Origin: a virus
Length of the DNA stretch: 24,925 bases
Direction: 5' to 3' (one strand)
IMG/VR virus record: IMGVR_UViG_3300029268_002493
Location: 1-24,925 of that record
In this document: positions 35-17,406 of the stretch, piece by piece
Layout: each line of letters opens with the position of its first letter
Numbering within the stretch: the stretch's first letter is position 1
The notes under the pieces: generated by a model
Database searches by the model: none
Told to the model about the DNA's origin: nothing
The model's input: only the letters and a program-made list of their open reading frames with translations
Position numbers and translations under genes: made by a program

Positions 35-949
35 TTAAAGAGGACACCATCCATCCCCCAAAAAAAGAAAAGCCGCTTTCTGGGTTGGGTCATAATACAT
101 ATCACCGTCAGCAGGATTGCTGGGTTCCGTTTCGCTTGCCCCACGCCATTTAATAAAATCATGACTGTGCAAGCCGTCTAATAGATCAGCATTGACATTT
201 ACGCAAAGCAGTTGATTATTCACATATATCGGAGAATAGCCGTTCGCGTAGATCTCCAACTTCCGCCAAATGCTAACAGATGTTAAATTCATCCTTAAAA
301 GCAGGTTGTCCCCCATAACAAAAAATCGTATAGCGGCGTCGCCGTATGGGTTAGATGTGTTTATGTTAAGCCCATTGATTCCAGTACTTTCGATGACCCC
401 GCAGGCGGGAAGGTGTCTTAATAAGGAAGAGCCATAAAACTCATCAAAAAAATAAGAATAGAGACAACCAGCAGACGTATCTAACATAAGTGTAGAAAAT
501 CCAGCTTGATCCATATTGATATTTTGAATACAAACTCCGGAGAAAGAATCAGTAGTAAACAAGTGCCAATGATAATCAGGTTGCTGAGTTCCAATTCCAA
601 TTTGAAAACTATAAATTGGTTCTGGAAGTTCGAACATAGCTGAAGCAGAGAGGCTGTTATCAACACCACACTTAAGGATATTACCCTGGGTTACCGCAGA
701 GAAAATAACTTCCGAAAGCGCAGGATATTCTCCGATGGCAACAGAAGCGAAAGTTGGGTTAGCACTGACACCAATTGAGACCACGCCTGTTCCAGAATCG
801 GCCCCCGTACAACTGAGGCCCTGCATATTAGAATCGGAACGCAAAGCAAGTTTTGTAATAACAGATTTGCCCGAAATATTGGTGCAGAGATCGTCAATAG
901 TTATACCGCCATCCAGAATGTTATTGCTTTTAACCTGCGTGCGGGCCAT
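35..949 (-). CDS. Putative tail fibre / receptor-binding protein (304 aa)
   Basis: This is the last gene of the late operon and the leftmost in the window. It opens with a low-complexity N-terminus (MARTQVKSNNILDGGIT) of the kind that attaches fibres to the tail. Near residues 250-265 it carries ADLLDGLHSHDF, a motif that recurs in phage tail fibres and fibre tips. A short C-terminal stretch (SNPADGDMYYDPT) resembles trimeric fibre caps, and the protein ends in LGDGWCPL. The start is an ATG two bases after the preceding gene's stop, behind AGGGGAT. The middle has no family I recognise; host-range domains diverge quickly, so this is expected. Fibre role is inferred from the motif and from its place after another fibre gene. 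It could instead be a fibre-tip or head-decoration protein. Confidence 0.7.
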   Translation of the reverse strand: MARTQVKSNNILDGGITIDDLCTNISGKSVITKLALRSDSNMQGLSCTGADSGTGVVSIGVSANPTFASVAIGEYPALSEVIFSAVTQGNILKCGVDNSLSASAMFELPEPIYSFQIGIGTQQPDYHWHLFTTDSFSGVCIQNINMDQAGFSTLMLDTSAGCLYSYFFDEFYGSSLLRHLPACGVIESTGINGLNINTSNPYGDAAIRFFVMGDNLLLRMNLTSVSIWRKLEIYANGYSPIYVNNQLLCVNVNADLLDGLHSHDFIKWRGASETEPSNPADGDMYYDPTQKAAFLFLGDGWCPL

Positions 950-951
950 TT

Positions 952-2220
952 TTATCCCCTATAATACTGAATAATTACGTTATCGCCCGCCTTAGCGGCG
1001 GAAACCAATAGCACGCTAGTACCCGATGGCTTAGTATAATCTTCTGTGTATCTAAGTTTTATCCCATTATGGAACACATTGAACATACCAATTCTAAGAG
1101 TTCCTTCCACAGCTAATTCGCCCGTATTAGCCGCCGTTAGAGAGAATGTCGTCTGCCCTTCTGTTGCGGTATAAGATTGTTCAATCATGTCGGCCAGGAA
1201 AGCAACATTTGTTTTGTTTACAATTATAGTGTTAGTAGACATTGTAAGGCCGCTACCGATATTCACGCTTAACTTTGTTCCCGAACCTCCGGAGAGACCA
1301 CCGGTAGTGCTTAACGCACTGCTATTAATTTTGGCCTCAGTGATAGCGCCAGCCCCTATTTTATCCGTAGTAACTGCTCCGGTACCAATATGAGCTTCTA
1401 AAACTCCCCCTGCTTTGATTTTTAGAGTGGAGGTACTAATATCTAAGGAGGTATCAACATTAAGCCCAATAGCGACGGTGCGCGTGCCCCCGGTTAGGGT
1501 TATTCCGTTACCATTAGTAATATTGAAAGTATCGGTTTTAGTGGAAGCGCCCATGCTTCCGGCACCATTAATTGTAATAGCAGAATATGCCAGTTGGTTG
1601 ACTTCCGCACCGGAGGCGATCCCCGAGAGCTTGGTAAAATCTGAGCTACTCATCAAACCATTAATTGAACCGGTAGCCACTCTTGCGGTGTCGAGAGCAA
1701 AAGCAGTACCAGCAAGAGTCAGTCCTGTGCCTGCGGTATAGCTTCCGGCACCACTGAATTGTACCCACGTAATTGTGGTAGTCTCCAAAACCGCTGCGCC
1801 GGTATCAACCGTACAGACCCACCCTGTGTCAGCCTGTGTAGAACCGCTTTCAACGAAAACAAATGCGGAAGTCAGCTGATCCCAAGAGTCGGCATCAGAG
1901 GTTCTCGTCCATGCACCGGTGGCAACGGCATATATACCGTTTTGGCTGGAGGTTGTTTGATTTTTAACTAACACTCTATTGCCGGCGGTGAGGACAACCC
2001 CGTCTATCGTTTGAGCACCTGAGAGAGTAATAGTTCCGACTGTAGCGGCACGAACTGCGGCTTTTACCCTTAGGCCCTGAGCTACGGTATCCACGTAATT
2101 CTTAGTTGCCGCATCCTGGGCTAATGAAGGTTCTGCGAGATTAGTGATTTTTTTTGCGTTAAAATCAAGGTCTGCAACGATTTTAACTTGATTAGGGATA
2201 GAAATTTTTGTAATTGCCAT
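952..2220 (-). CDS. Tail fibre protein (422 aa)
   Basis: Three modules typical of phage fibres are visible. Residues about 20-48 hold the KITNLAEPSLAQDAATKNYV motif, common to tail fibres and collar-type proteins. Residues about 50-155 hold a beta-rich repeat domain recognisable from IDGVVLTAGNRVLVKNQTT followed by QNGIYAV and GAWTRTSDAD, found in many tail proteins. The last 75 residues hold an NG..L....DYT....V.L beta module that also ends the preceding gene product. The middle is rich in Gly, Thr and Ala, as in long beta-structured shafts. The start is ATG behind AGGAGC, nine bases after the upstream stop. It acts on the outside of the virion, presumably in adsorption. The fibre assignment is firm; the receptor cannot be inferred. 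Confidence 0.85.
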   Translation of the reverse strand: MAITKISIPNQVKIVADLDFNAKKITNLAEPSLAQDAATKNYVDTVAQGLRVKAAVRAATVGTITLSGAQTIDGVVLTAGNRVLVKNQTTSSQNGIYAVATGAWTRTSDADSWDQLTSAFVFVESGSTQADTGWVCTVDTGAAVLETTTITWVQFSGAGSYTAGTGLTLAGTAFALDTARVATGSINGLMSSSDFTKLSGIASGAEVNQLAYSAITINGAGSMGASTKTDTFNITNGNGITLTGGTRTVAIGLNVDTSLDISTSTLKIKAGGVLEAHIGTGAVTTDKIGAGAITEAKINSSALSTTGGLSGGSGTKLSVNIGSGLTMSTNTIIVNKTNVAFLADMIEQSYTATEGQTTFSLTAANTGELAVEGTLRIGMFNVFHNGIKLRYTEDYTKPSGTSVLLVSAAKAGDNVIIQYYRG

Positions 2221-2229
2221 GATTTGCTC

Positions 2230-3849
2230 CTAAAGAATTTGATAATTTATGAGAACGTTTGATTCGGGCGGTATCGCCTGGATAAACGTGATTGTGTTGT
2301 TGTTGGATTCTGTATAATCCTCGTTTAGTGTAAGCCTCATACCATTAAGGTAGAGTTCGGTAGAGGCGGATTGAAAGAGTTTTCGGGTTGTAAAAGAGAG
2401 GCTTTCGGTAGAAAGAGGAATTTCTCCCAATATTTTTCCTGATAGGAATTTATCTGAGAGCACGCTGGGATTGTTAAGACCCGGAGAAGCGGGTACAGTT
2501 GTGTTAAGAAGTATGGCCTCTAACTCTGTATACCCCTCCTGAAGATTGCGAACAATTTTGAAAGGTCGGTACTTTTTTCCATCGATTACATAATTATTAG
2601 TAATAGAAAAGTCGGTTCCAACGAGTTTAATAACATAAAAGATAGAAGTTGTTTCACCACCTCTGTGTTTTAACCAATAATCGGCTATAAGCCGGCCGTT
2701 AGGAACAAAGTTGGAGTCCCCTCCGAGCTGTGTAAAGTCATACCAGGAATTGCATGGGGAATAAACAATATCGGGATCCTTAATTGCAAAACATAGAGTC
2801 ATTCCCTGATTTGTAACCAGCCAAAGATTAGAGTGCCAATTGCCTTGGCCGGTGGGGCCTTGAGCGTCTGTCACAACTGGTGTTTTAACTTCAATGGTCT
2901 TGTCTTTAATATCAGTATAAACACCTGCTTCCCAAATATAGGGGGATTGATTAGTCGGGGGTTCAACAGTTACTCTAACATATTGGATGGGTAATGACTT
3001 AAATGTTCTTAAAATTGAGATGACTTTATTTCCGACAGGAAGAGATTGAGCCGGACTGTGGAATGGGAGAAAAAAGGGATATTCACTTTTTTCGACTCCC
3101 GTAATACAACAAAAACTGTTAGCAAGACTTCTCAGAACGTCAGCCAGGGTTTCAAATCCATAGCTTTTATCTTGGAAGATCTTGCTGATATTAACGTTGA
3201 CGTTTTCAATCGACCCGTTGAAATAATTATAAGACCCAAACTCATAATGAAACAGCCAGTGATGATTAATGTTAAGAGAGGCGTTTGGGTCTACTTTACG
3301 GTAAATCTTTTCTATCAAATCTTTAAGAAGTTCAGGCTGGTCATAAGTTGAATAGCCCAACGGATTCGTCGGATTACCGTCAAGATCGAATAGTTTTGTT
3401 TCATTGAGAATATTGGTTGAGGGTGCAGCTTTGAATTCAAAGGTTTTTTCGGCTTCGGGGTATTCGAGTTCATCGAGCTTAATTTTACCGGTAAATTCAT
3501 TAACAAAAACCTGGTTATTAAGAATTTGGAGGGTAACTTCCGCCTCTTTGCTTAAGACATGCGGGGCGTATTGCCCGCCTTCGTTGAAGAATATCTTAGT
3601 AAGGAAGTCTTTAGAGTCAAGCACGGTGAAGGTAAAGAACGAGGGAACGATAAGAAGATTTTTCATCTCATAGGATGTATCAATTTCACCAAGATTTGTT
3701 ATATAACATCCAACAGAAGAGGCGGTGATAATCGTGTCTATATGATTATTATAATCAAAAGAAATGGTGAGTTTACATCTCTCTCCGGTCGGAAGCAGCA
3801 TTCTGTGGTTGCTTCCGTCAGACTCGAATACTATTAGGAGTTTAGCCAT
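2230..3849 (-). CDS. Putative tail-tip / distal tail protein (539 aa)
   Basis: It lies directly after the tape measure gene, with its start overlapping that gene's stop by eight bases, which is the usual place for distal-tail or baseplate-hub proteins of long-tailed phages. The protein is beta-rich and has no signal peptide or membrane segment. Residues 1-140 look like a compact beta domain. Residues about 486-539 form the fibre-type module LYLNGMRL...NEDYT... that ends in VLINYQIL, which the next gene product also carries at its C-terminus. I do not recognise a named family for the first 480 residues. Tail-tip function is inferred from position and from the C-terminal module. A hub or fibre-anchor role is equally possible. 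Confidence 0.6.
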   Translation of the reverse strand: MAKLLIVFESDGSNHRMLLPTGERCKLTISFDYNNHIDTIITASSVGCYITNLGEIDTSYEMKNLLIVPSFFTFTVLDSKDFLTKIFFNEGGQYAPHVLSKEAEVTLQILNNQVFVNEFTGKIKLDELEYPEAEKTFEFKAAPSTNILNETKLFDLDGNPTNPLGYSTYDQPELLKDLIEKIYRKVDPNASLNINHHWLFHYEFGSYNYFNGSIENVNVNISKIFQDKSYGFETLADVLRSLANSFCCITGVEKSEYPFFLPFHSPAQSLPVGNKVISILRTFKSLPIQYVRVTVEPPTNQSPYIWEAGVYTDIKDKTIEVKTPVVTDAQGPTGQGNWHSNLWLVTNQGMTLCFAIKDPDIVYSPCNSWYDFTQLGGDSNFVPNGRLIADYWLKHRGGETTSIFYVIKLVGTDFSITNNYVIDGKKYRPFKIVRNLQEGYTELEAILLNTTVPASPGLNNPSVLSDKFLSGKILGEIPLSTESLSFTTRKLFQSASTELYLNGMRLTLNEDYTESNNNTITFIQAIPPESNVLINYQIL

Positions 3850-6580
3850 AGTTTAGGACATTCCTTTCTAATTGATCAAGGCGCATTCTAAGCTTATTAA
3901 AACTCATATCCATTTTCCCGGAAAGATTAATATTAATGGGTTGAGGGGCACGCTGGTTATTAGCATAAAATTTTGTAAGATAGGATAGGGGGAAAACTCC
4001 TTCTGATTCACTTCCTTCGCCGACCATCATGAGAGTTGGGCGTGTGACAATAGCGCCGGATGCAGCACCGGCTATGGTTGGAATCTCGAATGAACCGCCC
4101 CCGATGGGAGAGATCTTTCCGAATAAACCACCCAAAAAGCTAGTGGCGCCACCAGTGAGGGCGGAGAAACCAGCGACAATTACGTTTAACACTATCCATT
4201 CAGCTACCATCTTTTGCAGGGTTTGTAGCACAGCATTGCCAAAATTAGCAAAGGCCACAGTCATAAAATCAGCGTCATCTTTAACTCTGATGCGTAATTG
4301 TCCAAACATTTCCGCAATCATATTCACTGAATTATCTGTAATGCTCTCCATTAGTTTGCTTTTAGACGCCCAGTGATCAACTATTTGCTGTGTTGTTTCA
4401 GACACGGGAACGGGTAACTCAACTTCAGGGACATAAGGCAGGGGACCATTGCCAAAAGATTGAAAAGACATCGGCAACTGCGCTTTCGGAAGCTCTCCTT
4501 GCGGACTCAAAAGTTCGTTCAACAGAGGATTATTTTTCTTTATCCATTCGAAATATTCACTCTGGAGAGCTTTCTCTTTGTTAATTCTAAACGTTGTTTC
4601 GTTAAATTTATCTCCAAGACTCTTCTTAAAAGAAGTGATTTCTTCGTCCATCAATTTTTTTCTAAAATCGTAATAGTTTGAGTCAGCGAACTTCACCTGG
4701 TCATAATATTTTTTTAGGTCATCTATAGACTTGGAGGTGGAGGAAGATGTTTTCGTTTTCCCCGATAATGAGTCAAGTTCTTTCTGAGTAGATTTAATAA
4801 GGTTTAGCACTCTGGACTGTCCCGCTTTATCTGTTATGTCGAGTTTGTCATATTCGCCATTTAAGGCTTCAATTTCTTTTTTAAGCTTGTTAGTGTAAGC
4901 TCCCACAGATGTGTCGTTAACAATAGGAGAGGGTGTTTTGTCTAGATCCTTAGCAAGCACATCCATTCGCTTTGTAATACTCTCGACCTCCTTTGCTGCC
5001 GTTTTGTAGTTTTGTAATTCCTCATCAAAAGCCGAATTTGATATTTGCTTTGTGACACTCCCTTTAACATAATCCCAGAAACTGGGGCCCCCGATATTCT
5101 TCATTTTTTCTTCAGAGTCGAGTTGTTTCCCTCTTGCTTCTCTTAATTTATCCTCTAATATTTGCAAGTCCATTTTTTTTATGTAAAGGCCATTGATCTT
5201 TTTAATTGACGCTGAGAGTTCTTCGTTCGATGTTTTCTCGAGGTTAATATTCCCAAGATAGCCCGGATATTTTTGGTTAATTTCATCCAGAATGCGTTTT
5301 CTTTCGTCATTTTTAAGATTATTGTCTTGAAGTTTGTCAGTAAGGGATTGAAATTCTCTCTGGTTAAGACGAAGGTCTTTTTCTGTTTCGGACATTTCCT
5401 GATTAACTTCTTCGGCGCTGTCTCCGAATAAGGAGAAAGCCGTTGCCAGAGCACCAACGGCCAGACTCACCCAGCCGATGGGACCAAGCGAGGCAAAAAA
5501 GCCCTTGACTGCAATAGACGCGGCAGCCATTTTCCCTGCAAAAACCTGACCGGACATGGAAGCAAGGTTCATTTGAAGTGAAGCAGTCTGCATCGCGGCT
5601 CTTAGTGTGGTGGTATTTATTATCATGGGGACAAGACCGGCAAGATTGGCTTTAAGTCCTGTTACCTGTAGGAGCATAAGCGCTGTTGTGAGGGCGCCGG
5701 CTCCTGCTATCACGCCTCCCAACGCTGGCGAGACTTGATTAATTTTACCAATAAAATTAGAGACGGCTATAACTATGGGGCTAATCCCAAAGTTTAGAGC
5801 GCTTCCAAAAGCAGTCTGCATAACACCGATATTATCGCTAAGCGTGGAGAGTAGACCGGCGCCGGATGCACTTTGTTTGTCCATCATACCAAAGAACCTG
5901 CCTCCTTCGCTGGTTGCACCGATGAAAGCCTCCTTAACAAGATCAAAGGAAATCCGTCCGGCTGAGACTTCATCTTTGAGTTCTCCCATAGATTTCCCGG
6001 TTTTTTCTGACATAACCTGTAAAGGGTTAAATCCTGCCCCAATCATCTGTAAGAGGTCGCCGCCCATAAGCTTGCCACTCGAAGCAACCTGGGCAAATAC
6101 AAGGGAAAGAGAAGATAGCTTCTCTGCATTGCCACCGCTAACATCTCCGAGCATCTTCAGGTACGGAATAATATTATTAGCCTCTATTCCGAAGTTAAGA
6201 AGGAGTTGAGCGTTTTTGCTAATATCGGGAAATTCAAAAGGTGTGACTGCAGCAAATGTCTTGAGATCCGAAAGCATGATCTTAGCAGCCTCGGCGCTTC
6301 CCAACATCACTTCGAAGCTAATTTGAGCTTGCTCGGCATCAAGAGCCAAGGTGAAGGGTGTTCCGAATACGTCGGAGATTACGCCGTATACCTCCTGGAA
6401 GCCCTGCATAGCATTTCGTGCATTTGTTAGCCCATCGACTAAACCGGCACCGACACCGGTACCGCTGTCCTTTGTCTTTTTGAAAGACGCTATCAGCTCA
6501 TCGATCTCTTTCTGAGTTGCGTCAAGAGTAGTGAGAGCTTCCTTCCCATCTATTACTATTGTTAGCTTGATTTGTGACAT
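3842..6580 (-). CDS. Tail tape measure protein (912 aa)
   Basis: This is the longest gene in the window. Residues about 60-260 match the conserved tape-measure domain: an AEQAQISFEVMLGSAEAA segment, TPFEFPDISKNAQ, and GGDLLQMIGAGFNPLQVMSE. Hydrophobic Gly/Ala-rich stretches follow (for example around GGVIAGAGALTTALMLL and PIGWVSLAVGALATAFSLFG), then a long charged coiled-coil region from about residue 390 to 640, and a further hydrophobic patch near residues 800-835. This is the usual architecture of tape measure proteins, which set tail length and enter the membrane during DNA ejection. It follows the tail-assembly chaperone frames, as in lambda and Mu. The ATG start lies about 160 bases downstream of the end of the frameshifted chaperone frame. 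Confidence 0.93.
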   Translation of the reverse strand: MSQIKLTIVIDGKEALTTLDATQKEIDELIASFKKTKDSGTGVGAGLVDGLTNARNAMQGFQEVYGVISDVFGTPFTLALDAEQAQISFEVMLGSAEAAKIMLSDLKTFAAVTPFEFPDISKNAQLLLNFGIEANNIIPYLKMLGDVSGGNAEKLSSLSLVFAQVASSGKLMGGDLLQMIGAGFNPLQVMSEKTGKSMGELKDEVSAGRISFDLVKEAFIGATSEGGRFFGMMDKQSASGAGLLSTLSDNIGVMQTAFGSALNFGISPIVIAVSNFIGKINQVSPALGGVIAGAGALTTALMLLQVTGLKANLAGLVPMIINTTTLRAAMQTASLQMNLASMSGQVFAGKMAAASIAVKGFFASLGPIGWVSLAVGALATAFSLFGDSAEEVNQEMSETEKDLRLNQREFQSLTDKLQDNNLKNDERKRILDEINQKYPGYLGNINLEKTSNEELSASIKKINGLYIKKMDLQILEDKLREARGKQLDSEEKMKNIGGPSFWDYVKGSVTKQISNSAFDEELQNYKTAAKEVESITKRMDVLAKDLDKTPSPIVNDTSVGAYTNKLKKEIEALNGEYDKLDITDKAGQSRVLNLIKSTQKELDSLSGKTKTSSSTSKSIDDLKKYYDQVKFADSNYYDFRKKLMDEEITSFKKSLGDKFNETTFRINKEKALQSEYFEWIKKNNPLLNELLSPQGELPKAQLPMSFQSFGNGPLPYVPEVELPVPVSETTQQIVDHWASKSKLMESITDNSVNMIAEMFGQLRIRVKDDADFMTVAFANFGNAVLQTLQKMVAEWIVLNVIVAGFSALTGGATSFLGGLFGKISPIGGGSFEIPTIAGAASGAIVTRPTLMMVGEGSESEGVFPLSYLTKFYANNQRAPQPININLSGKMDMSFNKLRMRLDQLERNVLNYG

Positions 6581-6596
6581 TATTTTGTTATATTTG
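6566..6596 (+). promoter_or_regulatory. Candidate Bacteroidota-type promoter reading plus
   Basis: CTTG (6566-6569) is followed by 19 bases and then TATATTTG (6589-6596). This fits the Bacteroidota pattern TTTG-N19-TAnnTTTG with one mismatch in the -33 box. A start near 6603 would leave a leader of about 14 bases before the small plus-strand ORF at 6617. The promoter overlaps the beginning of the tape measure gene on the other strand. It is AT-rich sequence, so chance is possible. Confidence 0.35.
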
Positions 6597-6616
6597 CATA
6601 TAATCTTAGATTAATT

Positions 6617-6745
6617 ATGACAACAATTGAGTGTATTCTTTTTTGGATGATTCTTATCCCAATGGTTTGGGCGATAAACAAATATATCGTTAATAAAATA
6701 TCTCCGTGTGACAACAGCTATTTAGAGAAGCATTGGCGCGACTAA
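6617..6745 (+). CDS. Possible small membrane protein (42 aa), antisense to late operon
   Basis: This ORF occupies the gap between the frameshifted tail chaperone and the tape measure gene, on the strand opposite to both. It encodes 42 residues with one hydrophobic segment (ILFWMILIPMVWAI, residues about 7-20) followed by a charged, lysine-containing tail. A Bacteroidota-like promoter sits just upstream. No clear Shine-Dalgarno sequence is visible. Its stop overlaps the end of the chaperone -1 frame by three bases. Against it: it is short, and an antisense gene within a late operon is unusual. It is recorded because it fills most of an otherwise gene-free stretch. Function unknown; single-pass membrane location is inferred from hydrophobicity alone. 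Confidence 0.35.
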   Translation: MTTIECILFWMILIPMVWAINKYIVNKISPCDNSYLEKHWRD

Positions 6746-7310
6746 AGAGAGGCTTGGAACGCATTATTGTCGAGCAGTTTGTTTAGCTCTTCCACTCTTT
6801 TTATATAAAGCCACTCATAAACCCAATTTCTTTCTGTATTCAAGACAGCCTCTTTTTTAGAAATATCACCATCGGTAAGTTCGTATACAATATCCCGCAG
6901 ATCATTAGTCCTAATTTTCGGAAAGAAATAGTCTGCGGAATATTTCTTTAATCGTCTTGCTTCTTCAATGGCGTCCGTAGCTCTGCAGTTAAGCTGCGCA
7001 AAGCGAGCGTTGAACGCTGTGATGAACTTATTTTCGTATAAAAAAAATCAGCGACCACTTCAACAGCAACCGCCTCATCAATTTCGTTGACATCAATTAC
7101 ATCAACAGGATCCATCGGTTCGAGAATCAGAGATAATAATTCAAACAGGTCTTCTTGCTTAAAGTGCGTCGCAACATTAAGCGAGTCACCCTCTGCTACC
7201 AGTGAGAGCTTTATTAGAGCATTGACCCGCGGAGCTTCTTTAAGTTTAATGTTTCTTAGCCGGGCGTTTAACCCGGCTATATTGTAGATTTTGTTTTTGA
7301 TTTCGTCCAT
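6742..7310 (-). CDS. Tail assembly chaperone, -1 frameshift product (GT-like, 189 aa)
   Basis: The short chaperone frame reaches a run of eight T (minus strand, positions 7047-7040) read as GAT TTT TTT TAT. A slip of -1 on T TTT TTT enters a frame open for 99 codons with no start codon of its own, continuing LYENKFITAFNARF and ending at TAG (6744-6742). The joined product has 90 residues in frame 0 plus 99 in frame -1. The extension is charged and helical (IEEARRLKKY, RVEELNKLLD). Lambda G/GT and Mu gp41/gp42 use the same arrangement just ahead of the tape measure gene, where the long form recruits tape measure protein during tail assembly. A sequencing error in the homopolymer, or a broken gene, would look similar; position strongly favours programmed shifting. 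Confidence 0.72.
6948..7310 (-). CDS. Tail assembly chaperone, short form (G-like, 120 aa)
   Basis: Starting from the ATG at 7310, eight bases after the tail tube gene stop, this frame encodes MDEIKNKIYNIAGLNARLRN and continues as a small acidic helical protein (EPMDPVDVIDVNEIDEAV) until the slippery T8 run. Without a shift it terminates at 6948 after a positively charged tail. The longer frame upstream would need a TTG start inside the preceding gene and is not preferred. Its position between tail tube and tape measure genes is that of gpG of lambda and gp41 of Mu, which coat the tape measure protein before tail tube polymerisation. No sequence family is recognised, as is normal for these fast-evolving chaperones. 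Confidence 0.68.
   Translation of the reverse strand: MDEIKNKIYNIAGLNARLRNIKLKEAPRVNALIKLSLVAEGDSLNVATHFKQEDLFELLSLILEPMDPVDVIDVNEIDEAVAVEVVADFFYTKISSSQRSTLALRSLTAELRTPLKKQDD
7040..7047 (-). promoter_or_regulatory. Slippery sequence for -1 ribosomal frameshift (T8)
   Basis: Eight consecutive T on the minus strand are phased T TTT TTT T relative to the upstream frame, which is the X XXY YYZ layout of -1 shift sites. The -1 frame is open from here to 6742, while the zero frame stops at 6948. I did not find an obvious strong stem downstream by eye. Confidence 0.65.
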
Positions 7311-7317
7311 GTAATCA

Positions 7318-8136
7318 CTATAAATCAAATGAGACTGTTAATGTTTCGCCAAGATGTGCTTCTCCGCCGGTGGCATCCGTGAAGTATAACTTATAGAGCC
7401 CGGTTTCAAGAATAATTTCATACTTTGTGTCAGCGATGGTGACGGTTCCAGTCCCTGTAGTTTTTGTAAGTACCACATTAGAGGGCTCTCTTTCAATTGG
7501 ATCAAGGTTCCGGTCCACAAGTGTAAGCTTTATTTCAGTAATGTCATCTTCTGCTGTTGGAGCACCAGGCATAATATATTTAACAAGTGGCTCGTTAGTG
7601 CGCAATTTATAAGCGTAAGAGAATTCCGTGGCCGCGGGGATGCCTTCACTCGGGAGTGAGGTAGGGTTCCCCGGAAGAGCCCAGAAGTCAGACCAGCTGC
7701 CCCACGGACTCGGATTTAGAAATTCGATTATCCTGTCAGCTTCAACATATTTGTTCCCGGTAAGCTTGATAGAGGATTTGTCGTCACCGGGGGTAGCCGT
7801 TACTTCGAGATTAAGGAGGACTGACATGATATAAGTGTCCATTCCTTTAAGCATGATGGTGCAGACTTTGTTTACCAGCTTCTGGATTTCAAAAAGGGAG
7901 AAATACTGAAATGTTTCGATTGTGACCGAGCAGTCATAACCCAGAAGGAGCTTGCTGCCGTCTACGAGTTCTGACAGTCTTGGTTTCATTTCAACAGCGA
8001 CTCCGGATTTGGGAATGAGGAGAGAGCCCGCCCATCCGGTTGAGCCTGCCCAGGCGTCGTCGCGAATGTAAACGTCCGTTACACCCTTTAACATGCGGGT
8101 TTTGTCTTTAGTTATATTGGGGATAATGTCTGGCAT
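7318..8136 (-). CDS. Putative major tail (tube) protein (272 aa)
   Basis: This mid-sized soluble protein precedes the tail chaperone and tape measure genes, the canonical place of the major tail tube protein. It has an all-beta flavour (GVTDVYIRDD, SVTIETFQYF) and a C-terminal region of about 80 residues (EIKLTLVDRNLDPIE..., TGTVTIADTKYEIILETGLY) that looks like an Ig-like add-on domain, common on siphovirus tube subunits. No tail sheath gene is found beside it, so the tail is probably non-contractile. The start is an ATG immediately after the stop of the candidate holin gene. The assignment rests on context and fold impression; I do not recognise a diagnostic motif. Confidence 0.7.
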   Translation of the reverse strand: MPDIIPNITKDKTRMLKGVTDVYIRDDAWAGSTGWAGSLLIPKSGVAVEMKPRLSELVDGSKLLLGYDCSVTIETFQYFSLFEIQKLVNKVCTIMLKGMDTYIMSVLLNLEVTATPGDDKSSIKLTGNKYVEADRIIEFLNPSPWGSWSDFWALPGNPTSLPSEGIPAATEFSYAYKLRTNEPLVKYIMPGAPTAEDDITEIKLTLVDRNLDPIEREPSNVVLTKTTGTGTVTIADTKYEIILETGLYKLYFTDATGGEAHLGETLTVSFDL

Positions 8137-8137
8137 A

Positions 8138-8341
8138 TTATTTACCTTTCGTCAATTGAATAAATTTTGTGTTAGAATACTGGAGCAAGTCAGCACTTGC
8201 GAATAGTAAGAATATACCCTGTCCAATTTGATAGGCGACTGTATATTCAGGGGTAATCTGAGCAACGAAAGCACCAAGCATAGCAATTCTACGCTTATTA
8301 CCTTCGAAGAATGTCCATATTTTGTTTAAGTATTTTTTCAT
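8138..8341 (-). CDS. Small membrane protein, candidate holin (67 aa)
   Basis: A basic N-terminus (MKKYLNKIWTFFEGNKRR) is followed by a hydrophobic region from about residue 19 to 50 (IAMLGAFVAQI, then GQGIFLLFASADLL) and a short polar lysine-containing tail. Size, charge pattern and location two genes after a cell-wall hydrolase fit a holin or other lysis accessory that sits in the inner membrane. One or two membrane passes are possible. No holin family signature is evident, so function is inferred from context only. It abuts the tail tube gene. Confidence 0.5.
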   Translation of the reverse strand: MKKYLNKIWTFFEGNKRRIAMLGAFVAQITPEYTVAYQIGQGIFLLFASADLLQYSNTKFIQLTKGK

Positions 8342-8365
8342 TTAATGGGGCGCTTTAAACCCTGT

Positions 8366-8806
8366 TTAGCTAGTTCTGATAGCAATAATTAAATTGTACG
8401 CTGCGAACACGAAATCGAGTGACTTCTGCAGCACAACCTTAACCTGATCGGTTTGTAATCCGAGATTGTCCTTAACAATTTGCAGAAGGGTTTTTAGTTC
8501 GTTTTCGTCCAGATCATTAATTTCCGAAGGTACTTTATTTATGCCGTTAAGGGCAGCCGGAAGCTTAAGAACCACGTTGAAGAAGTTGGGTAGATCTGCC
8601 AGAGTGACTTTCCCGTCAGCAAAGGTTTTATTGATTGCGTTTGCAAAAAGAACTGCAAAAAGAAGGACGTCTTTGGTCTCGTCAATACCTATTTTAACGT
8701 CTTCCGGAGTGTCGAGGATAAGCCCTTTTATCTCCTTGGGTATGTCTAAGGTCATGGACTGAAATTCCAAAGGTTTTGGCTGGGCGTCTAATTCTATGCG
8801 TGTCAT
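8366..8806 (-). CDS. Uncharacterised protein in lysis cassette (146 aa)
   Basis: Its ATG overlaps the endolysin stop as ATGA, so it is translationally coupled to the endolysin. The protein is mostly helical, with a segment FADGKVTLADLPNFFNVVLK around residues 62-81 and an alternating hydrophobic C-terminal half (QVKVVLQKSLDFVFAAYNLI). There is no signal peptide and no clear membrane-spanning segment. I do not recognise a family. Sitting between a glucosaminidase and a candidate holin, it may be a lysis regulator, membrane-associated lysis factor or a small virion protein; none of these is shown by the sequence. Confidence 0.75.
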   Translation of the reverse strand: MTRIELDAQPKPLEFQSMTLDIPKEIKGLILDTPEDVKIGIDETKDVLLFAVLFANAINKTFADGKVTLADLPNFFNVVLKLPAALNGINKVPSEINDLDENELKTLLQIVKDNLGLQTDQVKVVLQKSLDFVFAAYNLIIAIRTS

Positions 8807-9246
8807 AATTTGTACTCTCTTAATTTATTAATGATTGTTATCACCTTCCCCACATAATTGGGGTCGGTCGCGTATTTATAAACGTGCTCATTCTGTATGC
8901 TGGAAATAAAATCTTCCGGAGTTTTCTTTAGAAAAGCTTTTGGCCATCTTCTCTTAATCAGATCGGCATAATCACGGAAGCACTCCAGAGGGGTATCATA
9001 AGCCCGGAAATAGTCCTTAACAGAAACCATCTGACCGTTAAGAAATTCCTTTGTTTTTAAGATTTGCGTACTCCCTTTCCAGTTCTTGCCCGCTTTAATA
9101 CCGAAAAAATTGTTCTCAGGAGCTTTAGAACCCCAGGCACTTTCGAGAGCGGCTTGTGCCAAGCAGACCAGATAAGGGACTCCCGTAGCTTCTTCATTTG
9201 CTTTGGCATATTCAACATACTTCAAATAAAAATCTTTTGGTTTCAT
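8803..9246 (-). CDS. Endolysin, glucosaminidase domain (147 aa)
   Basis: The whole protein is a single mannosyl-glycoprotein endo-beta-N-acetylglucosaminidase-like domain (the FlgJ C-terminal type), which cleaves peptidoglycan sugar chains. Visible signatures are LAQAALESAWG (Glu35 is the expected catalytic acid), NNFFGIKAG at residues 45-53, YFRAYDTPLECFRDYADLI, and a late YATDPNYVGKVITIINKL. There is no signal peptide, so release to the periplasm needs a holin or a similar route; a candidate lies two genes downstream. The ATG is preceded by AAAGGAAG. It follows a terminator hairpin and forms a lysis cassette with the next two genes. A virion-associated lysin role is an alternative. Confidence 0.9.
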   Translation of the reverse strand: MKPKDFYLKYVEYAKANEEATGVPYLVCLAQAALESAWGSKAPENNFFGIKAGKNWKGSTQILKTKEFLNGQMVSVKDYFRAYDTPLECFRDYADLIKRRWPKAFLKKTPEDFISSIQNEHVYKYATDPNYVGKVITIINKLREYKL

Positions 9247-9255
9247 TGCTTCCTT

Positions 9256-9295
9256 TAATTAAAACCTGCCGGGGCTAAAAGCTTATCCGGCAGGT
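9256..9295 (-). terminator. Rho-independent terminator between secreted-protein gene and endolysin
   Basis: A perfect 9-bp stem (ACCTGCCGG at 9264-9272, CCGGCAGGT at 9287-9295) with a 14-base loop is followed on the minus strand by TTTTAATT. It lies downstream of the secreted-protein stop and just before the endolysin ribosome-binding site. It could attenuate or separate lysis-gene transcription. Confidence 0.7.
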
Positions 9296-9318
9296 AACTA
9301 ACTATCATTTGGGGGAAT

Positions 9319-9756
9319 TTAATTGTCTCTTTTAGCACTTACTTTAAATGTGAAAGCAGACCTGTACCCGTTACCTGTGACTCCAATTATTGCTATCCTG
9401 TGCTGAACGTTATAATATGTACTGGTGTCGGCCCACGCTTTCTGAGTTAATACCGAATCGGTTCCAATGGTGGTTTCCGTAACAAATGTTGAACCGAAAT
9501 AACTTACTTGTCTGACCAGCTTAACCTTAACAGAGTCGTGAGTCTGGCTTCCTATAGCGAATACATCAAAAACTTTAGAAGTTCCGGACAACTTAAATCC
9601 GGAAGTATAGAGCGTATCAGTTCCGCTTAATGTCCCTTGGACGGTCACCGATTTGAAGCCATCATCATAATTGTCAACCACCTGAGTCAATATCTGGCCG
9701 TTGCTGATTATCGCGAACCCAAGAACGCTGATCATTAAAAAAAATAGTGTTTTCAT
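9319..9756 (-). CDS. Secreted protein of unknown function (145 aa)
   Basis: The first 20 residues form a clear Sec signal peptide (MKTLFFLMISVLGFAIISNG) with a likely cleavage site before or after the Gln at 21. There is no lipobox cysteine. The mature part, about 125 residues, is rich in Thr, Ser and Val with alternating beta-strand patterns (KSVTVQGTLSGTDTLY, DSVKVKLVRQV) and no cysteine, so it is probably a periplasmic or surface beta-protein. It sits between the gp37-like tail gene and the lysis cassette, closed by its own terminator and preceded by AAAGAAAAGG. A secreted product is out of place among virion genes. Candidate roles are superinfection exclusion, surface alteration or an unrecognised virion component. 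Confidence 0.8.
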   Translation of the reverse strand: MKTLFFLMISVLGFAIISNGQILTQVVDNYDDGFKSVTVQGTLSGTDTLYTSGFKLSGTSKVFDVFAIGSQTHDSVKVKLVRQVSYFGSTFVTETTIGTDSVLTQKAWADTSTYYNVQHRIAIIGVTGNGYRSAFTFKVSAKRDN

Positions 9757-9783
9757 TTCTTTACCTTTTCTTTATTGTGTTAA

Positions 9784-10221
9784 TTAAAATTCCTTATGTG
9801 TTAAATATCGGGTTGGCACTCTGACCGTTACCACATACCACCAGACTCCGTTTTCTTCTTTCAAGAATTCATCATCGGATACGTATATCTGTTTATAATT
9901 TTCTTTTATCCATAGTCCGCTAACAGTATCTATTATAAGTTGAACCCATTCCTCAACAGCCTTGCCCGTATACGACGCCCTTACGACCGCTATCACCCCG
10001 ATTTCAATATTCCGGTTCTGCAGAATTGAGTTTTCTGATTGAGAGTCTTCAAAAGTGCTCCCCCGGTATATAACGAGCAGAGATCCTTTCGGGTGACTCA
10101 ACTTGTAATTCTCAATTGACACCGGTTGCTCAACTAAAACTCTTTCCTTAGCGTCTTCGATCTTGCCAATCTCGGTTTCAAGAGCCTCAATAATGGTCAA
10201 TTTAGCAGTCATTATGTCCAT
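9784..10221 (-). CDS. gp37-like tail completion protein (145 aa)
   Basis: It follows the gp36-like gene with the ATG one base after its stop. Size, order and residues (LTIIEALETEIGKI at the start, QNRNIEIGVIAVVRA in the middle, WWYVVTVRVPTRYL at the end) fit the Mu gp37 / DUF1834 type proteins, thought to act as tail terminators at the head-tail interface. A second in-frame ATG four codons in is an alternative start. The protein is soluble, with mixed alpha/beta character. Family assignment is by pattern and gene order rather than by a diagnostic motif. Confidence 0.65.
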   Translation of the reverse strand: MDIMTAKLTIIEALETEIGKIEDAKERVLVEQPVSIENYKLSHPKGSLLVIYRGSTFEDSQSENSILQNRNIEIGVIAVVRASYTGKAVEEWVQLIIDTVSGLWIKENYKQIYVSDDEFLKEENGVWWYVVTVRVPTRYLTHKEF

Positions 10222-10222
10222 A

Positions 10223-10678
10223 TTAATAGAGGTCTAAAGTCTCTTTAGGAAATAACCGGTCAGCGTAAGATTTATTAATCACTATCTCGCTTTCAGGAGC
10301 GTCCTCAGAAGGAATGTCCAGGTTAATGATCCCCCTTTGAATCTTTTCAAGCTCGGAGACTCGTTTGTTATATATAGTCACAATGCTTTCAGGCAGTTCC
10401 AGTCTGAACCGCCGTTTATATAAGTTATAAATCGCAATGTCCTTGCTAATCGACAGGAGTCTCCCGGGAGTCGTTGTAAAGGGGAGTGTATAACGACTCC
10501 TGAGATAACCATCAATTTCTTCGTCTGCGCTTCTGATCTGCTCGACAACTCTTACAGCACATACATCATCTTCGTCAGTCAGGTCAATCTCGTCAAGCTC
10601 ACTGTTTTCATCATTCGTGAGCCGCAACAGTTCATCCTGGGAGATGTCTTTTAGTATCTCTGTAATTGTGGAATACAT
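10223..10678 (-). CDS. gp36-like head-tail connector (DUF1320-type, 151 aa)
   Basis: The ATG overlaps the capsid stop as TAATG. The protein has the features of the DUF1320 / Mu gp36 connector family: an N-terminal helical segment (STITEILKDIS), an acidic region, the sequence EIDGYLRSRYTLPFTTTP near residues 55-73, then a helix ending in IYNLYKRR. Members of this family lie between the major capsid and tail genes and form part of the neck through which DNA passes. The C-terminal 50 residues (KRVSELEKIQRGIINLDIPS) follow the family pattern of a helix plus an acidic tail. Confidence 0.82.
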   Translation of the reverse strand: MYSTITEILKDISQDELLRLTNDENSELDEIDLTDEDDVCAVRVVEQIRSADEEIDGYLRSRYTLPFTTTPGRLLSISKDIAIYNLYKRRFRLELPESIVTIYNKRVSELEKIQRGIINLDIPSEDAPESEIVINKSYADRLFPKETLDLY

Positions 10679-11604
10679 TAGCTTGCTATCCGGATCCCCT
10701 CAATTTTTGCGATTGATTTGCTGTTAAGAAGCGCAATCGCAGTATCCATTTCAACGCTGTGCTCATAATTGTTTTCAATCAACCCAAGGTCCTTAACCTC
10801 AAGCCCGAGGTTTGTGGGCAATGTAAGATCGGTCGCTTCGCCGAAGCGGGCAGCATAAACAGAAGTACAATCATTGCTGTTTCCACAGGTCTCGGTATTC
10901 GTGATAATATCAGCGCCCGTCTGACTATAACCGACGTCTACAATTCCGACACCGGCAAAGTACGGAATTAACAAGCCGAATTCATTCTTCTGGTAAGTGA
11001 TCAAAGAAGCTGCAATTGTACTCAGACGGCTCCAGAGAGTGCCGTTCATATAGAGAACCTCAGCTCCGCCATCAATCTTTTTGATCAAAAGCTGCAAGAG
11101 TTCGATCAGTTTTTGCTGCGTTGCCTTAGCGGCATCGCTGTTCCCAAGGGTGACGTTGATCCCGTTAGCGTTTGGGGTAATCTTTTGGGCTGCGGGCATA
11201 AGTTTGACTATGCCGTCGAATTGTGTGGCGTCATTAGCGGCGTCTCCGTTAAAAAATAAATCCTGAAACTTTCTTCCGAGGTCTTCGGCAAAGCTGAGAA
11301 GCTGTAAAGCTCTTTCGGAAGCTATGTCGCCGCCCCTTCTCTCGTAAGCTCTGTCAACCTGTACTTTATCGCCCACAATCTTTAAAGCCGGGTTTGCAAA
11401 TGTAGGAGCCTGTGGGTTGGCTGCGTATGCGCTGCCTATCGCCCTGGTCTTGCCTCCGGTTGCGGTGGATTTTGTGCGCCTGTATTCAGCACTCCCCACC
11501 ATTTTATAAAACTGCGCTTTTCTTAAAACGCTTGCTTTAGAAATCACGGCTGTAACAACTTGCTGAGTCACAGCATCGCTTGCGGAAATTTGTCCTATTA
11601 ACAT
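10678..11604 (-). CDS. Major capsid protein (308 aa)
   Basis: This protein follows the protease/scaffold gene, where Mu-like phages encode the major head subunit. It begins MLIGQISASDAVTQQVVTAV. The start chosen is the ATG at 11604, which has AAAGGA upstream; a longer frame would need a TTG inside the preceding gene. Sequence features fit an HK97-fold capsid: an N-terminal helical arm, a basic segment with YRRTKSTATGGKTRAIG, a long helix with QKLIELLQLLIKKIDGG, and a beta-rich C-terminus (GLEVKDLGLI). Length is normal for the fold. No cysteine-based or cross-linking feature is obvious. Assignment rests on context and fold impression. Confidence 0.85.
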   Translation of the reverse strand: MLIGQISASDAVTQQVVTAVISKASVLRKAQFYKMVGSAEYRRTKSTATGGKTRAIGSAYAANPQAPTFANPALKIVGDKVQVDRAYERRGGDIASERALQLLSFAEDLGRKFQDLFFNGDAANDATQFDGIVKLMPAAQKITPNANGINVTLGNSDAAKATQQKLIELLQLLIKKIDGGAEVLYMNGTLWSRLSTIAASLITYQKNEFGLLIPYFAGVGIVDVGYSQTGADIITNTETCGNSNDCTSVYAARFGEATDLTLPTNLGLEVKDLGLIENNYEHSVEMDTAIALLNSKSIAKIEGIRIAS

Positions 11605-11608
11605 ATTC

Positions 11609-12487
11609 TTATCCTTTATTGTTGGTTCTAATTTGATCTGCAATTACTTCGCTTGGAGTCAGTTTTCTCTCCTCAATCTTATTCTTAGCAACTTCCTTGA
11701 ACTCTATTATTTTTGGCTGATTCTCCAGAAACTCTTTGAAAAGTTTAACCGGATCAGCCGCGGTCTTGTCCGAAAACTCGAATACTTTTGCGTTGTCCTT
11801 CTCAGTCAGTTCAACAACGGCAAGCGCCTCCAGTATCTTCGAAGCAGACTCAGTCTGCGCCGGCAGCAGATTCCCAAATGCAATTCTCTCATTAAGGAAC
11901 TGCTGGAATTCAGCCGTGCGTATTCTTAAACTCAACCGGTTAAGCTCTTCTTCCGCCTGTTGCTGTGCTGATTTTGTGATTACAAGCTCTTCTGCAAGTC
12001 CTGCAAATTTTGCAACCTTCTCCTCAAGCTCTGCTATCTTAGCCTCATTCTCCCGGTATAATTCTGAAAATTCATCCTCGGGTTCCTGAAACTCTATAAC
12101 AGCATCCTTCTCTTCGTTAAACTCAATATCCCCAAGTCCTTTTACCGCCGGGGGAACGGCTCCCAAAAAGCCAACATGACGCAAACTCATATCGGGGTTT
12201 AAGGCAACCGATCTGTTTTTATACATCCCCTTTTTAACAGCATCAGCAAACTCAACAACCACCTGTTTGGGTTTTGCGTATAACACATTACCAATTCGCT
12301 TCAGAGATTCGATCCAGCCAAAAGCCGGTCCGTTTTCTTTCGGGTGGCCCACGACTATCGGAGCCTCATACTCGGAAGGCTTGTAATTACTTACAATCTT
12401 GTCGAGATGCTCGGGGGTATATTCCTGAGTCTGCCCTTTTGAGTTAGTGTGGGTACCGGTCTTGAATATCGCAAACCATTTTTTCAT
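11609..12487 (-). CDS. Prohead protease/scaffold, Mu gpI-like (292 aa)
   Basis: The N-terminal 120 residues match the Mu-like I-protein protease: FKTGTHTNSKGQTQEYTPE, APIVVGHPKENGPAFGWIES at about residues 42-61, then YKNRSVALNPD and HVGFLGAVPPAVKGL. From about residue 130 the protein becomes acidic and coiled-coil (ENEAKIAELEEKVAKFAGLA), as expected of the scaffold portion that fills the prohead and is removed before packaging. It is the first gene of the minus-strand late operon and has a consensus Bacteroidota-type promoter about 35 bases upstream. Capsid protein follows directly. In Mu a shorter internal product, gpZ, supplies scaffold; I could not decide whether an internal start is used here. 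Confidence 0.9.
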   Translation of the reverse strand: MKKWFAIFKTGTHTNSKGQTQEYTPEHLDKIVSNYKPSEYEAPIVVGHPKENGPAFGWIESLKRIGNVLYAKPKQVVVEFADAVKKGMYKNRSVALNPDMSLRHVGFLGAVPPAVKGLGDIEFNEEKDAVIEFQEPEDEFSELYRENEAKIAELEEKVAKFAGLAEELVITKSAQQQAEEELNRLSLRIRTAEFQQFLNERIAFGNLLPAQTESASKILEALAVVELTEKDNAKVFEFSDKTAADPVKLFKEFLENQPKIIEFKEVAKNKIEERKLTPSEVIADQIRTNNKG

Positions 12488-12753: not shown

Positions 12754-12990
12754 ATGAATATTCTTAATTCCGAGATCATTGCCCTGCTCACCGGAGGCGG
12801 CCTCCAACTCGCGGTTTTCGTAATATGGCTCTTTACCTTCAAATACTTTACAAAGCAAAATAATGAGACAATGCGCAAATTATTTTACAATATGGAACAA
12901 GACCTGAAATACAAGGAGCTCCTAATCGGAATCTTATCGCGGTTAGAACTGAAAATTGACCTGATCGGAAAGGGAAGGGAACGGGAATGA
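12754..12990 (+). CDS. Small membrane / coiled-coil protein (78 aa)
   Basis: It is the first gene of the plus-strand head-packaging operon. Residues about 7-30 form one membrane segment (IIALLTGGGLQLAVFVIWLF), followed by a basic linker and a helical, coiled-coil-like tail (TMRKLFYNMEQDLKYKELLI). Its position ahead of the small terminase genes corresponds to the Mu region encoding gp25/gp26 and lysis accessories. A spanin, holin or DUF2730-like (gp25) role is possible, but I recognise no firm family. The stop overlaps the next ATG by four bases. Confidence 0.7.
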   Translation: MNILNSEIIALLTGGGLQLAVFVIWLFTFKYFTKQNNETMRKLFYNMEQDLKYKELLIGILSRLELKIDLIGKGRERE

Positions 12991-13232
12991 GCAATGAATT
13001 ATTGATGGCAAAAGGAAGACTTGCGGACTGCGAAAAACAAATTAGCGACGCAGAGCTTAAAGCTGAAAATTATATGATTGCCCTTAGAGAACTTCTTGAT
13101 CCTTACAGGGACTTCGCAGATCTCGAACTTGAAAAAGCTCTCTTGCTTCTTAAGGATTTCAGGGGACTCCAACTTGAGGTGAGGGAATTGCGAACTTTGG
13201 GATGCAGATTGAAAAGAGATTATAACTTATGA
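12987..13232 (+). CDS. Small coiled-coil protein (81 aa), unknown
   Basis: The ATG overlaps the preceding stop as ATGA, and its own stop overlaps the small terminase ATG in the same way. The product is almost entirely helical and charged (GRLADCEKQISDAELKAENY, then LELEKALLLLKDFRGLQLEV), with two cysteines far apart and no membrane segment. Mu-like phages carry one or two such small proteins before the small terminase. No function can be read from the sequence; a packaging or lysis accessory is a guess from position. Confidence 0.72.
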   Translation: MSNELLMAKGRLADCEKQISDAELKAENYMIALRELLDPYRDFADLELEKALLLLKDFRGLQLEVRELRTLGCRLKRDYNL

Positions 13233-13615
13233 AAAGCGTGGTTATTTATGAGGAGGCAAAGCGATTATTTATCGAAGGCTATTCCCTCGATGCAATTGTA
13301 GAGCTGCTTAAAGGCAATGTTGCCCGTAAAACTCTCTTTAACTGGTGTAAGGAACATAGCTGGGAAGATCAGAGAAGAAAAAGGATTACCTCAACATCAG
13401 ACCTTCAGGATGATCTCATCGAAATCGTCAGGACTGCCATACGCGAGACAAAGGCTAACCCAACACCCCATAATATCTACGCAATTGTTAAGGCAGTCTC
13501 AGCAATGAAACTCTTCCAGGGTATCCAGCTTGAACCGGAAGAAGAAATTAAGAACACCGCAATCAAAGAAGAAACTATTAAACAAATTGAACGGGATATT
13601 CTCGGAATCGAATGA
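13229..13615 (+). CDS. Terminase small subunit, Mu gp27-like (128 aa)
   Basis: The N-terminal 50 residues form a helix-turn-helix (YEEAKRLFIEGYSLDAIVEL, then NVARKTLFNWCKEHSWEDQR), the DNA-recognition part of small terminases and of the Mu gp27 / DUF1804 group. A helical C-terminal part (TAIRETKANPTPHNIYAIVK) probably mediates oligomerisation. It immediately precedes the large terminase, whose ATG overlaps its stop. It is expected to bind phage DNA and start headful packaging. Length is slightly below that of Mu gp27. Confidence 0.82.
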   Translation: MKSVVIYEEAKRLFIEGYSLDAIVELLKGNVARKTLFNWCKEHSWEDQRRKRITSTSDLQDDLIEIVRTAIRETKANPTPHNIYAIVKAVSAMKLFQGIQLEPEEEIKNTAIKEETIKQIERDILGIE

Positions 13616-14970
13616 AAGAGAACAAGTATTTTCTGCCTTATCAATCGCGATGGCTTAATGATACAAGCAAAATTAAAATATGGGAAAAGTCACGCCGTAT
13701 CGGTGCTACTTATGTCCAGGCTTATGAAGATGTACGTGATTGCGTAACGGCAAAAGTCCCATCCGTATGGTTCTCTTCCGCGGATGAGTCTGCGGCTAAA
13801 GAGTATATTATTTATTGTGCACAATGGGCAAAACTTTTTGATAAAGGCGCCCGCGATCTTGGCGAAATAGTCCTCGAAAGTGATAAGTCAATCAAGACTT
13901 TCACAATTGAATTCTCCAACGGGAAAAGAATAAACGCCCTGAGCTCCAATCCAAAAGCTTTCAGAAGTAAGGGGGGTAAAGTCGTTCTCGACGAATTCGC
14001 ATTTCATGGTGATGCGGTTGCACTTTGGAAAGCCGCCAAACCGGCTGTTACATGGGGGTTCCCTCTTCGGATACTCTCCACTCATCACGGTCAGCAGTCT
14101 CTTTTTTATAAATTTGCTGACCAGGTTAAAAAGGGAAAACTCGGTTGGTCACTTCATACGGTTGATATTTTTAAGGCGGTCTCGGAAGGCCTTGCCGACA
14201 AGATTAAGGGAAGACAACTCACCCGGGAAGAGCGTGAAGAATGGCTCAAGAGCGAGGAAGAAGACAGTTTTGATAAAACCACCTGGCTTGAGGAATACTG
14301 TTGCGTTGCGGTTGATGAAGCAACTGCCTTCCTGAGCTATGATCTGATCACCGCTAATGAAGGAGAGTGCCTCCTTGACGACTTGGATACAATTGAAAAT
14401 GAGCTTTATATCGGAGTTGACATCGGCAGGAAAAAAGACCTTACCGTTATATGGGGAGTTGAGAAAATAGGCGCCCGGCTCTATACCAGATTCGTTCATA
14501 CTCTTGAAAAGACTCCATTCAAAATCCAAAAGGACATCCTCTTTGAATATCTCAAACATCCTAAATTCAGAAGAGCAGGTATAGACGCAACCGGTATCGG
14601 TATGCAACTCGCCGAAGAAGCTCAGGTTGCCTTTGGTAAATATTCCGTTGAAAATATTATGTTCACCGGCAAAAGTAAGGAAGAACTGGCATATAATCTC
14701 CTGATAACTTTCGAAGATAAAAACATTGTAATCCCCGACAGTCACGAAGTCAGGGAAGATCTTCACAGCGTAAGAAAAATTTCAACTGCCGGTAATCACG
14801 CCCGCTTTGACGTCGCCAAAAGTGAAGTCTCCGGACACGCAGACCGGTTCTGGGCTCTTGCCCTTGCTATCAATGCAGGTAAAACCGGAAGCGGGGAGAT
14901 TATCGTAGCCAGCGGAGGGCGAAGAAGGAGACAAGTCCTCGATGCTTTATTAAATAACTATTATTCTTAA
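13612..14970 (+). CDS. Terminase large subunit, Mu gp28-like (452 aa)
   Basis: This is the packaging ATPase and nuclease. A Walker-A-like segment SRRIGATY lies at residues 27-34, in the degenerate form usual for large terminases. Walker B is VVLDEF at 124-129 (Asp127, Glu128), and the LRILSTHHG stretch at 152-160 resembles the coupling motif. The C-terminal RNase H-like nuclease shows YIGVDIGRKKDLTVI with Asp270, RAGIDATGIG with Asp325, and a late Asp411 in HADRFW. Length matches the Mu gp28 group. It starts inside the small terminase stop and is followed by the portal gene 11 bases on. All key residues are present, so the enzyme looks intact. Confidence 0.93.
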   Translation: MKENKYFLPYQSRWLNDTSKIKIWEKSRRIGATYVQAYEDVRDCVTAKVPSVWFSSADESAAKEYIIYCAQWAKLFDKGARDLGEIVLESDKSIKTFTIEFSNGKRINALSSNPKAFRSKGGKVVLDEFAFHGDAVALWKAAKPAVTWGFPLRILSTHHGQQSLFYKFADQVKKGKLGWSLHTVDIFKAVSEGLADKIKGRQLTREEREEWLKSEEEDSFDKTTWLEEYCCVAVDEATAFLSYDLITANEGECLLDDLDTIENELYIGVDIGRKKDLTVIWGVEKIGARLYTRFVHTLEKTPFKIQKDILFEYLKHPKFRRAGIDATGIGMQLAEEAQVAFGKYSVENIMFTGKSKEELAYNLLITFEDKNIVIPDSHEVREDLHSVRKISTAGNHARFDVAKSEVSGHADRFWALALAINAGKTGSGEIIVASGGRRRRQVLDALLNNYYS

Positions 14971-14981
14971 GGAATTATTAA

Positions 14982-16664: not shown

Positions 16665-17406
16665 TTACGGCTTTCTAATTGGTCTTGAACCAAAGGCAAT
16701 TGTGGAGTGGTTCAAAAAAAAGGGGAATACAATCTCCTGGAACTGGCAGGAGGTCTGGAAAGAGGCTAACCTCAAAAGCTTCACAGTCGCAAAAGCCTTA
16801 AAACTTGACATCCTTCAGGACATCCGGAATGAAGTCGATAATGCAATTAAGAATGGTCTCTCCGTTCAGCAGTTCAAAGAAAATCTTACCCCTGTTCTTA
16901 AGACAAAAGGATGGTGGGGGAAGGTTCCTGCAAAAGATGTCCCGGGTGTTAACTCCGCTGACCTGGAAGATCCTGAAAAACCTGTCCAGCTCGGATCTCC
17001 TTACCGCCTGAAAAACATTTATACCACCAACCTCAACGTAGCATATTCCAAGGGCAATTATGACGGCATGAAAACAAACGTCTCAAAACGTCCTTATTGG
17101 ATGTATGAAGCCGTCCTGGATGCCAACACCAGACCCGATCACCGCAAGCTTCACGGCAAAGTCTTCCGGGCAGATGATCCTATCTGGAAAACGCACTACC
17201 CCCCTAATGGCTGGGGCTGCCGCTGCACTGTGCGAGCTCTCGACCAGGATGACCTTGAGGAAATGAACCTTAAGGTAGTGAAAGGTCCCGATTATGAAGG
17301 CTCTATCAAAATAGATAAAGGCTGGGATTATAACCCGGGAGAGGGCTATGAACCTGATCTTAAAAAATATGACAAGGATTTAGTTAAAGCATATAAAAAT
17401 GATTAA
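16651..17406 (+). CDS. Head morphogenesis protein, Mu gpF-like (251 aa)
   Basis: The phage Mu F-type minor head domain is visible at residues about 110-200: NIYTTNLNVAYSKGNYDG, then RPYWMYEAVLDANTRPDHRK, LHGKVF and PPNGWGCRCTVRAL (His164, His168 and the Cys189/Cys191 pair are family hallmarks). The first 90 residues (IVEWFKKKGNTISWNWQEVW) are the helical N-terminal part typical of this family. Such proteins are minor head components associated with the portal. It overlaps the portal gene upstream and the membrane-protein gene downstream. In Mu the next gene is gpG; here gpG lies on the opposite strand beyond an unrelated gene. Confidence 0.9.
   Translation: MPEIDYGFLIGLEPKAIVEWFKKKGNTISWNWQEVWKEANLKSFTVAKALKLDILQDIRNEVDNAIKNGLSVQQFKENLTPVLKTKGWWGKVPAKDVPGVNSADLEDPEKPVQLGSPYRLKNIYTTNLNVAYSKGNYDGMKTNVSKRPYWMYEAVLDANTRPDHRKLHGKVFRADDPIWKTHYPPNGWGCRCTVRALDQDDLEEMNLKVVKGPDYEGSIKIDKGWDYNPGEGYEPDLKKYDKDLVKAYKND

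Follow-up and report, generated by a model that had tools for sequence, protein, structure and literature searches.

A candidate programmed -1 frameshift in a probable tail assembly chaperone locus of a Mu-like phage and its relatives

The closest described system to the locus analysed here is the G/GT pair of phage lambda, in which two frames overlapping in -1 relation separate the major tail protein gene from the tape measure gene, and a slippery heptamer, G_GGA_AAG, gives a short and an extended product. Tail frameshifting of the lambda type takes place at a low level and is widely conserved despite low sequence similarity (PMC5009743, PMC2628397), and in a cluster of tail assembly chaperones related to that of HK97 frameshifting amounted to 6-7% when tested (PMC3711429). 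Mu, a transposable phage, has its gp41/gp42 pair at the corresponding genomic position and uses a -2 shift (PMC5009743, PMC2628397).

We analysed a stretch of 24,925 nucleotides (the window), which is the whole of IMG/VR virus record IMGVR_UViG_3300029268_002493. In its gene content the window is a transposable phage of the Mu type: it carries MuA- and MuB-like genes for transposition, and genes for a Mu-like portal, a MuF-like minor head protein, a protease and a major head protein. Unlike in Mu, its late genes are divergent, with terminase, portal and MuF on the plus strand (12754-17953) and capsid and tail on the minus strand (35-12487); among the genes of the window, none for a tail sheath was recognised. 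Two overlapping minus-strand frames lie between the tape measure gene and a gene without a match in Pfam or PHROG that is assigned to the major tail protein by its position (Table 1). As the first-pass annotation had stated, the pair stands immediately before the tape measure gene, which starts at 6580 and is recognised by both family libraries. This locus very probably encodes two forms of a tail assembly chaperone, the longer one made through a programmed -1 ribosomal frameshift.

Table 1. Coordinates of the frames, slip site and flanking genes in the window
Feature	Position	Strand	Basis
Putative major tail protein	7318..8136	-	Position; relatives have counterparts there
N-terminal 90 aa common to the short and extended products (from ATG through the Asp-Phe-Phe slip codons); putative tail assembly chaperone, lambda G-like role	7041..7310	-	Translation, orthologues, AlphaFold model
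T8 slippery run; canonical T_TTT_TTT in phase at 7047-7041	7040..7047	-	Sequence (A8 on the plus strand)
0-frame extension, read without a shift (30 aa and stop); overlaps the -1 frame	6948..7040	-	Translation
-1 frame extension (99 codons and TAG); putative lambda T-like part of the 189-aa fusion	6742..7041	-	Codon score, homologues, dN/dS, helical model
Tape measure protein, presumed chaperone client	3842..6580	-	Pfam TMP_3, E 1.5e-24; PHROG tape measure, E 8e-60

The locus shares with lambda G/GT its place between tail protein and tape measure genes, the predicted short and extended products, a -1 overlap in which the second frame has no start, an in-phase heptamer of the X_XXY_YYZ type, and a -1 frame that is conserved and under selection. 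It differs in its site, T_TTT_TTT, in the smaller size of its predicted products (120 and 189 aa) and in the lack of any sequence family match. The first-pass annotation had named both lambda G/GT and Mu gp41/gp42 as parallels. The first holds. The shift of Mu is -2, which makes Mu no more than an analogue and leaves lambda as the proper parallel; the third frame (+1, or -2) meets a stop 3 codons past the T run and the coding frame is -1, so that the -2 route of Mu was not found here. Family libraries did not recognise the window proteins as gp41/gp42.

Around the slip site the minus strand reads GTC GCT GAT TTT TTT TAT ACG. Starting at ATG 7310, the 0 frame ends in a stop at 6950-6948 and encodes 120 aa, or 126 aa if TTG 7328 is taken as the start. 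In the -1 frame a TGA at 7050-7048 abuts the T run, and reading then continues as TTT TTT TTA TAC to a TAG at 6744-6742. As a consequence of this TGA, which closes the -1 frame just before the run, entry into the frame is only possible at or after the run, and a -1 slip adds 99 codons to the first 90 aa to produce the 189-aa fusion. Translation reproduced the coordinates and lengths given by the first-pass annotation (120 and 189 aa, T8 at 7047-7040, 99 codons in the -1 frame) and its observation that the -1 frame has no start of its own. That the -1 frame is translated as a separate protein through re-initiation or internal initiation, as the overlap of the frames would allow in coupled genes, is very unlikely: no start codon yielding most of the -1 frame is present there and no suitable one lies near its beginning, homology to the fusion starts exactly at the slip site in two relatives (L030 and L033), and coupling would not need a conserved slippery heptamer.

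An open frame together with a slippery phase, taken alone, is only suggestive. The T8 by itself is not unusual, since five other 8-base A/T runs are present in the window; the evidence lies in a -1 frame that is open, coding and conserved. The -1 stretch was open in 0.065% of mononucleotide shuffles, and at none of 4192 positions inside the other genes of the phage did the -1 frame stay open for as long as 99 codons. Among the ORFs of the window there are 13 poly-A/T heptamers in slippery phase, and the second-longest open -1 stretch behind any of them measures 77 codons; it follows an A8 at CDS position 320 of the tail completion gene (18042-18509, minus strand) and is probably due to chance. 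To score coding potential we used codon log-odds trained on the other genes of the window, leaving out these two frames. The part ahead of the slip scored 0.30 and the -1 frame 0.23, with 0.28 for its portion past the 0-frame stop; for comparison, wrong frames gave -0.39 and -0.58, and real 100-codon windows 0.245 +/- 0.063. The 0-frame tail scored -0.14. By codon usage the -1 frame is coding, and it bears the signature of the phage's own genes.

Relatives were reached first by way of the nearby MuF minor head gene, which led to close phages and prophages, including Ignavibacteriota MAGs, and then through a profile of the -1 part, which recovered further viral contigs and prophages; in a search at the level of the phylum this profile matched 10 of 396 genomes, some of them weakly. 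Direct searches of phages and genome contigs with the 189-aa protein found little or nothing, and the capsid as a query gave no match. Matches of the tail-tube query to L004 and L005 were rejected as spurious, since they lay inside long unrelated proteins. We also left L001/L002 out of the evidence on frame conservation because this rearranged contig holds only a remnant of the gene. L001 (the same as L002, L034 and L035) is rearranged or chimeric; at about 2.8-4.2 kb it carries two MuF copies in opposite orientation together with interspersed repeats (peptide ...FEDIKTN...), within the tape measure region, that resemble a CRISPR array.

The first-pass annotation had proposed an alignment with related prophages as a check on the phase of the T run and on both frames. 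Our results show both frames in the same -1 relation in 17 related loci besides the window, viral contigs and prophages that include Ignavibacteriota, counted after dropping repeats of the same contig (two of them, L124 and L125, are nearly identical). The heptamer is T_TTT_TTT in 14 loci, T_TTT_TTC in one (L145) and A_AAA_AAA in two (L138 and L143), and in 15 of the 17 T_TTT_TTY sits on the same Phe-Phe codons. Given Asp-Phe-Phe, the chance of finding T_TTT_TTY in all 15 is about 1e-5 under the assumption of independent loci, although these loci are related. The two A_AAA_AAA sites imply that the slippery property is retained although the residues change. Among the loci with a T run its length varies, from T6C (L145) through T7 (n=6) and T8 (n=4) to T9 (n=4). 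GATTTTTT is invariant and in register in all 12 aligned loci, and the alignment is free of gaps over 120 nt, from which it follows that run length shifts by substitution in the next codon while the phase stays constant. The 0-frame tail, 13-32 codons long in the relatives, gave no homologue by tblastn. Two further features were seen in some relatives: a second in-phase A_AAA_AAA, a possible tandem slip site that the window does not have, lies 12 nt after the T7 in L124-L127 and L136, and the first chaperone codons are tandemly duplicated at the 0-frame start of L129/L033 (MGYKINNQEYQLKE... twice).

Homopolymers are prone to error, and a true run one base longer or shorter, through a sequencing or assembly error or the decay of a gene, would make of the two frames a single continuous gene. 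Because the run varies by substitution and not by indel, the frame relation cannot stem from a miscounted homopolymer. Furthermore, independent contigs with runs of 6-9 all keep the -1 relation, gapless across the site, a fused version was not found among the relatives, and constraint acts on the frames before and after the slip. Relatives with a -1 frame full of stops, the finding that the first-pass annotation had said would count against its reading, were not seen either. The sole one-base difference inside the -1 frame occurs in one copy, from the IGN3 MAG (L107/L132), of which L136 is a near-identical intact counterpart. Judging from these sequences, error is excluded in practice, and error or decay together are hardly credible.

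Selection on the -1 frame, another check put forward by the first-pass annotation, could be estimated among six close relatives; the window, at about 30% protein identity to its relatives, is too distant for dN/dS. Where dS was estimable, dN/dS of the -1 part was 0.09-0.27 (about 0.1-0.3), near the 0.07-0.31 of the 0-frame part, though many dS values are saturated and these figures are rough. By this rough measure, the -1 frame is under purifying selection in the relatives. In the overlap both frames are conserved within the close group, where counts are too small to separate them and dN/dS is too noisy. Conserved heptamer, codon usage and purifying selection in relatives together support the first-pass reading of a programmed -1 frameshift.

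The genomic setting recurs as well. The next ORF after the pair is long and resembles a tape measure gene in eight of nine extended prophage loci (the ORF at that place in L153 is short), and an ORF of about 310 aa resembling a tail protein lies upstream in several of them, these neighbours being assigned by position and appearance and not by family search. In a separate set, collected as relatives of the tape measure gene and with the overlapping upstream pairs picked by eye, the pair is in -1 relation in 15 of 17 loci and in +1/-2 relation in 2. A canonical slippery heptamer falls within the overlap in every one of the 15 -1 pairs, with a chance of 3-18% each. The two +1/-2 pairs (L023 and L025) lie upstream of the tape measure gene without a canonical -1 heptamer, and are perhaps a Mu-like -2 case.

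Neither part of the chaperone pair matched a family in Pfam or PHROG, and PDB sequence profiles gave chance matches only. The first-pass annotation's statement that the chaperones show no recognised family hence stands for sequence libraries; it does not extend to structure, as the best matches of the N-domain model, weak as they are, are tail assembly chaperones. The AlphaFold model of the N part (pLDDT 80.6) has as its first BFVD match a Kitkat (Arthrobacter phage) tail assembly chaperone (E 0.013, probability 1.00); entries of 155 and 279 aa for this phage's chaperone stand at ranks 1 and 3. The first PDB match of the model, weak, is the HK97 tail assembly chaperone (2ob9; E 0.6, TM 0.37), to which profile search found no sequence similarity. 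These fold matches point weakly to a tail assembly chaperone. For the C part, which is modelled as helical (pLDDT 78.7), the fold search found no meaningful match.

The mechanism we propose is the following. Most ribosomes would stay in the 0 frame and make the 120-aa protein. In a minority, tRNA-Phe on the TTT codons in the P and A sites of T_TTT_TTT would slip one base back, and these ribosomes would read 99 more codons to make the fusion. Canonical slippage, with both Phe tRNAs moving at once on U_UUU_UUU, matches the phase exactly. By analogy with lambda gpG/gpGT, the common N part may bind the tape measure protein and the -1 part may recruit the major tail protein, and tail assembly would be sensitive to the proportion in which the two forms are made. 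As for stimulators of the shift, no consensus pairs indicating a conserved downstream RNA structure were found among the relatives, the predicted fold of the window's own downstream stretch is hardly more stable than that of shuffled sequences (z -0.86), Rfam gave no match around the slip site, and no Shine-Dalgarno-like element was recognised by eye upstream. U_UUU_UUU is far less shift-prone than A_AAA_AAG in E. coli (PMC5009743). A low shift rate would suit a tail chaperone gene.

The lack of an RNA stimulator would also agree with slippage of RNA polymerase on the T8, adding a T or dropping two, so that part of the mRNA would encode the 189-aa product without any ribosomal shift. This is possible at the lengths found in the window (T8) and in four relatives (T9). 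Yet the six T7 loci and the T6C locus L145 retain the same arrangement and the exact phase of the heptamer. Runs of T7 or T6 are too short for efficient transcriptional slippage. The T6C case therefore favours the ribosome, and we consider polymerase slippage unlikely. A mixed lineage, in which polymerase slippage on T8-T9 and the ribosome on T6-T7 together set the chaperone ratio, is unlikely; were it true, the two-product output would have been kept while the mechanism drifted between transcription and translation with run length.

A ribosomal frameshift of this kind is already known from lambda and many phages, and what is new is the family and its conserved U_UUU_UUN site. With it, a sequence family unmatched in Pfam or PHROGs would join the frameshifted tail assembly chaperones, and the mechanism would extend to Mu-like phages of Ignavibacteriota and related bacteria, whose second product ordinary gene finders miss. 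Lacking a conserved RNA stimulator, and ranging from T6C to T9 with swaps to A_AAA_AAA, the U_UUU_UUN sites would provide a natural series in which run length can be set against product ratio.
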